The notes beneath the pieces were generated by a model. It saw only the letters and a program-made list of their open reading frames with translations, was not told the origin of the DNA and searched no databases. 64,000 bases of DNA from Asticcacaulis benevestitus DSM 16100 = ATCC BAA-896 (lineage in GTDB: Bacteria; Pseudomonadota; Alphaproteobacteria; Caulobacterales; Caulobacteraceae): positions 62,001-126,000 of the forward strand of contig NZ_AQWM01000005.1 in the NCBI RefSeq assembly GCF_000376105.1. Direction: 5' to 3'. Positions 5,277 to 44,493 of the stretch are shown piece after piece; position 1 is the first letter of the stretch, and each line of letters opens with the position of its first letter. The translations under genes and the position numbers were made by a program.

Positions 5277-5735
5277 ATGACGCCGGATAGTTTTAACTTC
5301 AATTTCCTGTCGCCCGATGTGCTGCGACCGGAGATTCAGGCCTTCGCCACCGGCTTCCCGATCACGCTCGTCCACGCCGGCGTCACCCTGCTGCTGCTGC
5401 TGATCGGCGCCACGGTCTATTCACTGCTGACCCCCTACAAGGAAATCAACCAGATCCGCGAGGGCAATTCGGCCGCCGCCGTCGCCTTTGGCGGTGTCAT
5501 CATCGGCCTGGCCATTCCGCTCGCCGCCTCGATGGCCGCCTCAACGTCCTTGCGCGAAATCGTGCTGTGGGGCGGCGCCACCATCGTGCTGCAACTGTTC
5601 GTCTTCCGCTTCGTCGACTTCCTGCTGACCGGCCTGCCGGCGCGCATCAATGAAGGTGAGGTCTCGGCCGCCGTACTTCTGGTCTCCGCCAAGCTCGCCG
5701 CCGCCCTCGTCCTTGCCGCCGCCGTCGCCGCGTAA
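5277..5735 (+). CDS. DUF350 (YjfL-like) membrane protein
   Basis: Small inner-membrane protein of 152 residues with four hydrophobic segments at about 28-48, 64-85, 94-112 and 127-150. The conserved DUF350 features are visible: TPYKEINQIREGNSAAAVAF, where charged residues precede the second helix. The family is often encoded beside stress or glutathionylspermidine-like genes, but its biochemical role is unknown. The gene is 6 bases upstream of the degenerate trypsin-fold gene on the same strand, so the two are probably co-transcribed. This pairing suggests a shared envelope role. Confidence 0.8.
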   Translation: MTPDSFNFNFLSPDVLRPEIQAFATGFPITLVHAGVTLLLLLIGATVYSLLTPYKEINQIREGNSAAAVAFGGVIIGLAIPLAASMAASTSLREIVLWGGATIVLQLFVFRFVDFLLTGLPARINEGEVSAAVLLVSAKLAAALVLAAAVAA

Positions 5736-7821: not shown

Positions 7822-7913
7822 GGCGCGTCTCCTTATTTTGGAGACCACACTAGCCCGAACCCTGTAAGAACGGCGTTCCGAAAGCTATGAGCGCCTGTAA
7901 GGGCCGTGTAAGG

Positions 7914-42285: not shown

Positions 42286-44433
42286 TTAAGCGCAGGATGA
42301 CAAGCCTTCGAGACGTTTTTCATTAATAAGATGAAGCAGTTCGGCAGCAGCGCGTGCATCAGCCAGGGCGCGATGGTGGTTTTTCAGCTCGATATTGAAC
42401 GCACGGCACAGATTGGCCAGGCCATAGGAGGCGTGGCCGGGGTAATGTTTGCGCATCGAGGCGCAGGTACACAGTTTGGGGTGGCGAAAGCGCCGTTCCA
42501 AGCGGCGAAACTCGCTGGCGATAAACCCATGGTCGAATGTCGCATTATGCGCCACAAATATGGCGCCTTCGATAAACATTGCGAAGTCATCGGCGATATC
42601 GGCAAATTTAGGCGCATCACGCACCATATCGTTGCTGATTCCCGTCAGTTGGGTGATGAACTGCGGAATACGTTTCTCCGGATTGATTAGCGACGACCAC
42701 TCACCGATGACGCGGCCATGCTGCACCTTGACCGCGCCAATCTCGGTGACGCGATCATTGGGGGGCCGCCCGCCAGTGGTTTCGACATCGACCACAACAT
42801 AAACCTGATCTGGATCGGTGCGGTAACTAACCCGGCAGATATCGGCCGCGAAACCCAAACTGCGCAACAGGTTCAGCCGCGCCAACTGGTGGCGGCGCAC
42901 GCAGTCGCCCTCGCCCTTGATCTCGACAAAGCGCACCGCGTCGTCGCGGATCAGCACCAGATCGGGGAAACCATCGCGCAAACCATAGAAATCCTCGGCC
43001 ATGTTTTGCAGCAAACCCGCCACAGCGTCGCGCGGGGCAGCGCTTAAGAAGGCAGTGACCAGGTCTTCCAGCCCCTTGAACCAGACAAACAGCCCGTTGC
43101 TCTCGCCATGATGACGCCGGATAATATCGCGCATGTAATCCGTCGCCTCACCTGCGCGCACCCACGCCAGTTTTTGCGCGATCTGATCGGCAAAGCGCGT
43201 GTGGAAGGTGCGATCTTTCAGGCTCTGTGGCCGGCAATCGAAATCCGAACCAAAGCTTGCGGCGCTTTCAAACAGTTCTTCCCAGAACAACAGGCCAAAA
43301 AGCACCGCCCACAGATCATTTTCGCTGTGCCAAGGCGTCCAGCCCTGTTTGGCATAGGCCTGCATGGCGGCGTATTCGGCATCGCCGCGGAACAGTTCAT
43401 CGACCTCTAGCGTCTCGGCCGAACGCAGCAGATGGGTGAAGATACCCATGCGTTGCTGGCCAAACTTGCGGGCATAGAAATCGCTGGCGAAGATATATTC
43501 CTCATCATGCGCCGGGCTTTGCAACATGGCTTCGAGCCGCGCCTTGACCTCATCGGTGGCGCCCATAGCGTAGAGAAGGCGAACACCGCGCTCGTGGCTT
43601 TCGAAAGCACCGGAACGGGCATAGATGTCGAGCGCGCGAGCCGTATCCTTGCGCTTTTCAAACGCCAGGCCGATCTGGTGCAGCAGAGTATCACGCAAGG
43701 TTTGACTGGCCTCGCTCTCAGCCGGCGGCCATGCGTCCAGGCTATCAGCCAGCGCCGTGGCATCGGCCCCCTGCCTCAACGCCTGCAATTGCCGCGTATA
43801 GAAATAGCCGGCGCGCGCTGCCTGCAAGTTATCAAAGCGCGCCTGATAGCTGTCGCGCGCCTTCACCGACACCACGCCGAGATCACGCAGAGCGAAGCTG
43901 GTCATGTTGTCGCTTAAGCGACCGAAATAGAGATAGAGCAGGAAGCCGAGCGTATCCTTGTGTTCCGGCACAAAATGGTCCGAACGCAGGAAGCCGGAGG
44001 CAAAGGCGTCATAGGCCAGATGGGCCTGGATATGATCGGCAAGCCTTGGTTTTGACCAGCCGGACTTGACCTCAAGCCCATGGTCCTTCGCCAGATTCTG
44101 CAAGTCAGGCTTGGCGTGATCGTCGAGACAGGCGTGATAATCCTGCGCGCAAATCTCACGGATGAAGCCATGTTCGCGTAATTGATCGAGCCCGCCCCAC
44201 AGGTCGCCGATCTCCTGATAGTCCAGGTCACCGGGCGAGAAGACCGCCTTTTTGCGGTTGACCATGCGGATATAGAGGCATTGCGCCCATTCATCCAGTT
44301 CTCCGAAACGGCTGATAAAGGCCTGTTCGTCTTCGCCCAGCATGGCGCCATAGACCGACGTCACGAAGCCGATCATCTCCAGAAAGTGATCGCGGTAATA
44401 GAGCGGCGGCAGGGTTATGAAGTCACGGGCCAT
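42286..44433 (-). CDS. FAN1-type VRR-NUC nuclease fused to a DEDDh 3'-5' exonuclease
   Basis: The 715-residue protein joins two nuclease families. Residues 1-485 have the helical FAN1 layout, with a SAP-like segment (LQNLAKDHGLEVKSGWSKPR, about 112-131) and a repetitive helical middle. The VRR-NUC domain (about 488-535) has GFPDLVL (D491), FVEIKGEGD (E504, K506) and the QLARLNLL helix, the metal-dependent PD-ExK active site used by FAN1 on interstrand crosslinks and flaps. Residues 544-707 are a complete DnaQ/PolC-type DEDDh exonuclease: D549 and E551 in VVVDVETT, D634 in AHNATFDHGF, H687 and D692 in HHRALAD. The known bacterial FAN1 (P. aeruginosa) lacks such a fusion. An SOS box lies directly upstream. 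Confidence 0.88.
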   Translation of the reverse strand: MARDFITLPPLYYRDHFLEMIGFVTSVYGAMLGEDEQAFISRFGELDEWAQCLYIRMVNRKKAVFSPGDLDYQEIGDLWGGLDQLREHGFIREICAQDYHACLDDHAKPDLQNLAKDHGLEVKSGWSKPRLADHIQAHLAYDAFASGFLRSDHFVPEHKDTLGFLLYLYFGRLSDNMTSFALRDLGVVSVKARDSYQARFDNLQAARAGYFYTRQLQALRQGADATALADSLDAWPPAESEASQTLRDTLLHQIGLAFEKRKDTARALDIYARSGAFESHERGVRLLYAMGATDEVKARLEAMLQSPAHDEEYIFASDFYARKFGQQRMGIFTHLLRSAETLEVDELFRGDAEYAAMQAYAKQGWTPWHSENDLWAVLFGLLFWEELFESAASFGSDFDCRPQSLKDRTFHTRFADQIAQKLAWVRAGEATDYMRDIIRRHHGESNGLFVWFKGLEDLVTAFLSAAPRDAVAGLLQNMAEDFYGLRDGFPDLVLIRDDAVRFVEIKGEGDCVRRHQLARLNLLRSLGFAADICRVSYRTDPDQVYVVVDVETTGGRPPNDRVTEIGAVKVQHGRVIGEWSSLINPEKRIPQFITQLTGISNDMVRDAPKFADIADDFAMFIEGAIFVAHNATFDHGFIASEFRRLERRFRHPKLCTCASMRKHYPGHASYGLANLCRAFNIELKNHHRALADARAAAELLHLINEKRLEGLSSCA

Positions 44434-44439
44434 AGGATT

Positions 44440-44454
44440 GTTCTATATATGTTC
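44440..44454. promoter_or_regulatory. LexA (SOS) box of the FAN1-exonuclease gene
   Basis: GTTC-TATATAT-GTTC is a perfect match to the alphaproteobacterial SOS box GTTC-N7-GTTC, preceded by TT as in well-known boxes. It ends seven bases before the FAN1-exonuclease start codon on the minus strand and would block the promoter when LexA binds. The divergent lipoprotein gene begins 112 bases away. Confidence 0.8.
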
Positions 44455-44493
44455 CGGACCAATAAAACAAGACGGACATGTCTCGGTTAACGA

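Follow-up and report, generated by a model that had tools for sequence, protein, structure and literature searches.

A FAN1–DEDDh Nuclease Fusion With Predicted LexA Boxes in Asticcacaulis benevestitus and Other Pseudomonadota

Introduction

What is the role of a single polypeptide that joins a FAN1-type nuclease to a DEDDh 3'-5' exonuclease and is encoded behind a putative SOS box? The question is raised by a gene in a 64,000-nucleotide stretch of Asticcacaulis benevestitus DNA (here called the window), which belongs to a genome assembled into 100 contigs with a total of 5.0 Mb. What is known of bacterial FAN1 comes mostly from structures solved with the aim of understanding the human enzyme. 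The answer that we consider probable is a LexA-repressed, DNA-damage-induced two-nuclease repair enzyme, predicted to serve at crosslinks or bulky adducts.

The original prediction knew of no described single-chain version. In agreement with it, as far as a full-text PMC literature search reaches rather than the whole literature (most subscription journals lie outside its scope), neither a description of a FAN1-DEDDh fusion nor a paper on VRR-NUC together with DEDD and exonuclease was found among the matches listed. What seems to be new is the presence of FAN1 and DEDDh in one chain; both families and fusions of DEDDh domains to repair enzymes were already known, and the fusion architecture is already contained in public annotation, where it carries no specific name.

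Domain Organization of the Fusion Protein

The ATG of the fusion gene occupies positions 44431-44433, followed by a single frame without internal stop; from stop to stop the frame counts only 718 codons, which leaves room for an alternative start no more than three codons before this ATG. The encoded protein, P0001, contains the domains FAN1_HTH, VRR_NUC and RNase_T in this order, each above its Pfam cut-off:

42286..44433, minus strand: FAN1-DEDDh fusion gene encoding P0001, 715 codons (amino acids), stop codon included in the coordinates
44161..44403, minus strand: FAN1_HTH domain, P0001 aa 11-91 (Pfam PF21315, 3.6e-18)
42826..43131, minus strand: VRR_NUC (PD-(D/E)xK) nuclease domain, P0001 aa 435-536, with D491, E504 and K506 (Pfam PF08774, 4e-14)
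42334..42798, minus strand: DEDDh 3'-5' exonuclease domain, P0001 aa 546-700, with D549, E551, D634, H687 and D692 (Pfam PF00929, RNase_T, 6.9e-39)

A FAN1-type site and a complete DEDDh site in one polypeptide had been predicted from the letters of the sequence, and all eight residues were indeed found at the positions given, in accordance with the Pfam matches. In the comparison with solved structures, aa 9-540 of P0001 were homologous to the Pseudomonas aeruginosa FAN1 (PaFAN1) structures 4r89 and 5y7g (E 3e-29), while aa 540-706 matched the DEDDh domains of PolC (2p1j) and Staphylococcus aureus DinG (SaDinG; 8zef) as the nearest solved exonuclease domains. D491, E504 and K506 pair in the alignment with D507, E522 and K524 of PaFAN1, which are given as its active site (PMC9635880). 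Thus, the N-terminal part shows FAN1_HTH and VRR_NUC in one chain, homology along FAN1 and the PD-(D/E)xK residues as features of FAN1, and the C-terminal part shows the RNase_T match and the D-E-D-H-D residues as features of the DEDDh enzymes of the DnaQ superfamily. According to PMC4103454, a two-helix insertion is what keeps the VRR_NUC domain of FAN1 monomeric; the stretch of P0001 that precedes the PD motif can be aligned with PaFAN1, and helices were modeled at 454-465 and 469-485, at pLDDT below 50. The AlphaFold2 model, built with three sequences, had a mean pLDDT of 46 and was too poor for placing the two active sites.

The exonuclease part found its best NCBIfam match in PRK07883 ("DEDD exonuclease domain-containing protein"; 5.7e-53), although its score of 180 bits is far below the cut-off of 495 and the match is confined to the exonuclease part of the fusion. 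The partner domain in PRK07883 proteins is presumably a UvrC-like nuclease.

Conservation of the Two Catalytic Sites and Comparison With Known Enzymes

The fused proteins were aligned (n = 61), of which 30 are alphaproteobacterial and 31 belong to family f190 outside the Alphaproteobacteria. D491, E504, K506 and D549 are each present in 61 of the 61 proteins, E551 in 60, and D634, H687 and D692 in all 60 rows that reach them, the remaining row stopping at a contig edge. Most of the exonuclease is missing from locus L027, where the contig ends. The exception at E551 is L039, from a Bradyrhizobium-like family (that of genome G503), in which this second acidic residue of the DEDDh site is replaced by G and the FAN1 residues are kept. 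The distance between K506 and D549 is 43 residues in 61/61 proteins, a constancy that suggests a single joining event behind all of them. A tree of the FAN1 part sets the 61 fused proteins apart from 34 unfused ones (SH-aLRT support of 100); being unrooted and quickly made, this tree shows one group and not the direction of change. As separate groups within it, the fused alphaproteobacterial and the fused f190 proteins received weak support (71 and 16). At 31 positions, fused and unfused FAN1s are conserved alike. The frame-broken locus L009, which has no anchor, and the interrupted gene L046 were left out of the trees and of the box test described below, L030 was also left out, L128 was dropped as a duplicate of L064 from the trees and from the control-window and unfused-FAN1 box count, and matches to other exonucleases (e.g., L002, L003 and L032) were set aside.

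PaFAN1 (PA1865; 4r89, 5y7g) resembles the fusion in homology across the whole FAN1 part and in the same positions of the catalytic triad, and structure chains of human FAN1 match P0001 over parts; however, both enzymes are devoid of the exonuclease domain which the fusion has. FAN1 orthologues are reported to cut 5' flaps, the Pseudomonas enzyme 4-5 bp past the branch point, and to have some 5'-3' exonuclease activity (PMC4103454). With regard to the other half, SaDinG likewise has a homologous DEDDh domain joined to a repair enzyme, but that enzyme is a helicase, and the exonuclease stands at the N terminus; both activities of this DEDDh-helicase fusion are described as necessary for resistance to mitomycin C and formaldehyde (PMC12345164). 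MrfB of Bacillus subtilis, which is described together with the helicase MrfA, shares with the fusion the DEDDh exonuclease type and belongs to mitomycin C repair as a 3'-5' exonuclease (PMC11194089), whereas it is encoded by a separate gene and has another partner. No chain named MrfB was among the 29 structure matches of P0001.

These comparisons bear on how far the second domain takes part in the repair of the lesion itself. The FAN1 part might handle the lesion, with the DEDDh part providing general 3'-end clean-up or proofreading during gap filling and having no special role at crosslinks. The general PolC/DinG/DnaQ type of the exonuclease domain would be in line with this, a plain scaffold would account equally well for the fixed FAN1-DEDDh junction, and one fused member has lost E551. 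Nonetheless, apart from this one loss the exonuclease site is no less invariant than the FAN1 site, and two characterized DEDDh enzymes, SaDinG (PMC12345164) and MrfB (PMC11194089), take part in the repair of crosslinker damage, so that we regard a mere clean-up role as rather unlikely.

Distribution of the Fusion

Two doubts had been raised with the original prediction, namely that related genomes might lack homologues in which the two domains share a frame and that the frame might be an artefact joined in sequencing. Many such homologues were found. The fusion is present in 23 of 25 Asticcacaulis genomes (host genome counted), on contigs of up to 3.7 Mb, and in 21 of them it is uninterrupted; the frame is broken in G016 and split at contig ends in G014. 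The two-domain frame kept uninterrupted in 21/25 genomes of the genus rules out a mis-joined frame or assembly artefact. Since G019 and G024, i.e., two of the 25 genomes, lack the fusion, the gene is dispensable. Among the genome contigs searched, named relatives were found in Asticcacaulis sp. AC466 (78% identity over aa 1-708) and A. taihuensis (79% over aa 1-709).

Among 149 Caulobacteraceae genomes a match at the cut-off of 1e-30 was obtained in 21, all of one genus, and none in the other genera of the family (one of 22 sampled genera positive). Outside Asticcacaulis the fusion is patchily spread across the Alphaproteobacteria. In a sample of 385 genomes of the class, four have such a match, the host genome among them. 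The FAN1_HTH profile matched 55 of 398 genomes sampled from the Pseudomonadota; the fused form is present in 11 of the 55, in G420 as an interrupted gene, and in the remaining 44 the frame is 539-687 aa long. A pattern search for the first exonuclease motif gave no hit in the 34 of these 44 non-fused frames that were examined. All six alphaproteobacterial genomes positive for FAN1_HTH have the fused form, five from the phylum sample and G069 from a sample of 289 genomes of the class, which overlaps the earlier class sample.

Of the 147 genomes of family f190, 46 contain the fusion, and of its 52 genera, 15; the nearest named proteins are those of Pseudoalteromonas, at 40-44% identity, and f190 would therefore seem to be gammaproteobacterial. 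In the family of G503 four of 149 genomes have the fusion, and the proteins share up to 89% identity with the one encoded on a named Bradyrhizobium plasmid. Named records place the fusion on the plasmids pS11L-1 of Bradyrhizobium japonicum and p172_1 of Bradyrhizobium sp. 172, both typed as conjugative, and also on three Pseudoalteromonas replicons. The three annotated named records call the product "exonuclease domain-containing protein." On the B. japonicum plasmid (L067, 4950-7154) the annotated start at 5550 lies far inside the fused frame, which means that the FAN1 N terminus has been missed in public annotation. Two copies of the fusion (L038 and L037), each with an exact box upstream, were observed in G385, a Bradyrhizobium-like genome of 8 Mb.

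Patchy spread and members on conjugative Bradyrhizobium plasmids, on one of which the fusion lies near a gene annotated GASH, could indicate a mobile-element or anti-phage nuclease brought under SOS control, and PADLOC models do match the exonuclease part. All four PADLOC matches, however, are confined to the DEDDh part, for which reason assignment to a defense system was rejected, and no defense gene was recognized among the neighbors in the clustered flanks. A phage origin was likewise rejected: none of the 141 matching phage records covers 80% of the fusion protein, and the sole match on a viral contig is restricted to aa 45-76 (E 1e-3). Together with the presence of the fusion in 23/25 genomes of the genus, on contigs of up to 3.7 Mb, this makes a mobile or anti-phage nuclease an improbable explanation.

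Predicted LexA Box and Its Conservation

A perfect GTTC-N7-GTTC box seven bases upstream of the gene had been claimed. The box is there and reads so on the plus strand; the distance needs correction, as six bases separate it from the ATG and its nearest base is at -7. It overlaps a putative promoter:

44440..44454, minus strand: predicted LexA box, GAACATATATAGAAC on the gene strand (GAAC-N7-GAAC; GTTC-N7-GTTC on the plus strand), from motif and orthologue conservation
44442..44470, minus strand: putative promoter, with a TTG-containing -35-like element at 44465-44470, a 17-nt spacer and a -10-like TATAGA inside the box

If TTG and TATAGA are the -35 and -10 of the fusion gene, as their arrangement suggests, LexA would cover the -10, since TATAGA lies inside the box. 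When 22 genus loci are aligned on the box, each of its 15 columns carries more than 1 bit, a value exceeded elsewhere only by TTG(C/T) at -16 to -13 and by two isolated columns. The sequence GAACNTATATNGAAC occurs once in the genome, at the fusion locus. The GTTC-N7-GTTC motif accompanies SOS genes of the host: lexA has two boxes, at -79 and -53, and recA has one at -104. A weaker match to the RecA model, which we take to be radA, has a box at -38, and no box was found in the locus of a weak second LexA-domain match (L099).

Within the 64-kb window GTTC-N7-GTTC matches twice against 1.63 expected, which is not significant, so the significance of the box rests on its position and conservation. 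The second match (7857-7871), between the 3' ends of a DNA-glycosylase-like gene and another gene, presumably acetyl-CoA-synthetase-like, is probably due to chance, given the 1.63 matches expected.

GTTC-N7-GTTC is described as the alphaproteobacterial LexA motif and the Escherichia coli motif as common in most beta- and gammaproteobacteria (PMC3323433, PMC12700426). For a uniform test, the 200 nt preceding a conserved tyrosine pair near the N terminus were searched in each locus. The exact box lies upstream in all 23 Asticcacaulis fusion loci, and over the alphaproteobacterial regions exact GAAC-N7-GAAC was found in 28 of 30 against 0.26 expected from shuffles; of the other two, L035 has its box farther upstream, and L097, the one such case in 31 alphaproteobacterial loci, has none within 200 nt. 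For f190, 32 loci from the 46 matching genomes were taken, 14 lower-scoring ones being left out, and 31 were scored. CTGT-N8-ACAG with at most one mismatch was present in 26 of these 31 regions (1.7 expected from shuffles) and the exact form in nine (0.1 expected), and five regions had no good box. In control windows of 200 nt from the same loci the exact alphaproteobacterial box occurred in 0.28% (n = 2,518), and CTGT-N8-ACAG at one mismatch in 5.1% and never exactly (n = 2,639). When the motifs were exchanged, both the alphaproteobacterial motif in f190 loci and the gammaproteobacterial motif in alphaproteobacterial loci were at background. Of the five named plasmid members, four were examined, two from Bradyrhizobium and two from Pseudoalteromonas, and each has the box of its class. 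Many rows of the box test are closely related, so the counts do not represent independent events, and the switch of the motif with the class is the stronger point.

Thus, the fusion has a host-type box at its promoter that is conserved among orthologues, as expected for a member of the LexA regulon, and the proposed SOS control gains support from class-specific conservation, controls and plasmid members. Chance, which the count in the window could not exclude as the origin of the box, is argued against by the orthologues, the shuffles, the control windows and the motif of the other group. An alternative in which the box is no LexA site and something else regulates the gene would fit the chance-level count in the window and is nevertheless highly improbable in view of group-specific conservation in 28/30 and 26/31 regions as compared to the controls and of the same motif at the host lexA and recA.

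Proposed Role of the Fusion Protein

A repair enzyme induced by damage, for which the SOS box had been taken to argue in the original prediction, is the best reading of the locus, with domain identity, single-chain fusion and SOS control supported by the sequence tests. Domains, intact catalytic sets, the conserved fusion and class-matched boxes can be read from the sequences directly. Enzyme activities, substrate, order of steps and LexA binding in the following scheme are those that we infer. We propose that LexA would occupy the box over the -10 region and that its removal upon DNA damage would allow the fusion protein to be made. Where an interstrand crosslink or a bulky adduct forms a block, the FAN1 part would bind the branched or gapped DNA and incise a few bases past the junction in the manner of PaFAN1, and the DEDDh part, kept by the shared chain at a constant distance, would remove nucleotides in the 3'-5' direction from the new or exposed 3' end. 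By combining FAN1 incision with tethered 3'-end trimming, the chain could act in both directions around the lesion; the two nucleases would clear the DNA on either side of it or else shorten the unhooked remnant, and bypass synthesis or recombination would deal with the resulting gap. Such a one-protein system would make incision and trimming separable by point mutations.

SOS Boxes at Unfused FAN1 Genes

Boxes were also found at unfused FAN1 genes outside the Alphaproteobacteria: CTGT-N8-ACAG with at most one mismatch lies upstream in 22 of 34 distinct loci, eight of them exact, as compared to 5.7% of 1,759 control windows (loci with E. coli-type LexA boxes drawn from L102-L131, L051, L054, L056, L064 and L065). 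This suggests that FAN1 may broadly be an SOS gene and that SOS control may be old in the FAN1 family and not tied to the fused form. The PaFAN1 gene PA1865 is reported to be induced by UV-C and ciprofloxacin and repressed by hydrogen peroxide, and the same source assigns it to none of the three damage regulons known in P. aeruginosa (PMC12796719).

A wider proposal, which we put forward tentatively and with some doubt, would combine both lines: the fusion would be a self-contained, SOS-induced incise-and-trim machine for crosslinks or bulky adducts that works without UvrABC, FAN1 making the cut and DEDDh carrying out the 3'-5' resection, and FAN1, fused or not, would be a general member of the LexA regulon in Pseudomonadota, its LexA box being re-made on moves between lineages with different LexA specificity. 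The tie to a 3'-5' exonuclease, together with SOS-type boxes that follow two unrelated LexA specificities, is a pointer to the purpose of bacterial FAN1, and crosslink repair by FAN1 is suggested as a widespread and overlooked SOS function of Pseudomonadota, including genes reported outside known damage regulons.

Gene Neighborhood

No conserved repair operon was recognized around the fusion when the flanking genes were clustered. The neighbors in Asticcacaulis are lineage-specific only (clusters of five and eight loci), and the f190 loci have neighbor families common to up to 16 loci, which were not recognized as repair genes. A small protein with an HNH motif is encoded just upstream on the same strand in seven f190 loci (L047, L077, L079, L085, L087, L092 and L094), the motif being read in the sequences of seven of eight clustered upstream frames; the HNH-like neighbor in L079 matches Pfam HNH above the cut-off (7.8e-6) and NCBIfam HlpB below it. 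On plasmid p172_1 of Bradyrhizobium sp. 172 a gene for an SOS response-associated peptidase (SRAP; L068, 4158-4907) immediately precedes the fusion in the same orientation, and the fusion has its own box in the gap after the SRAP gene.
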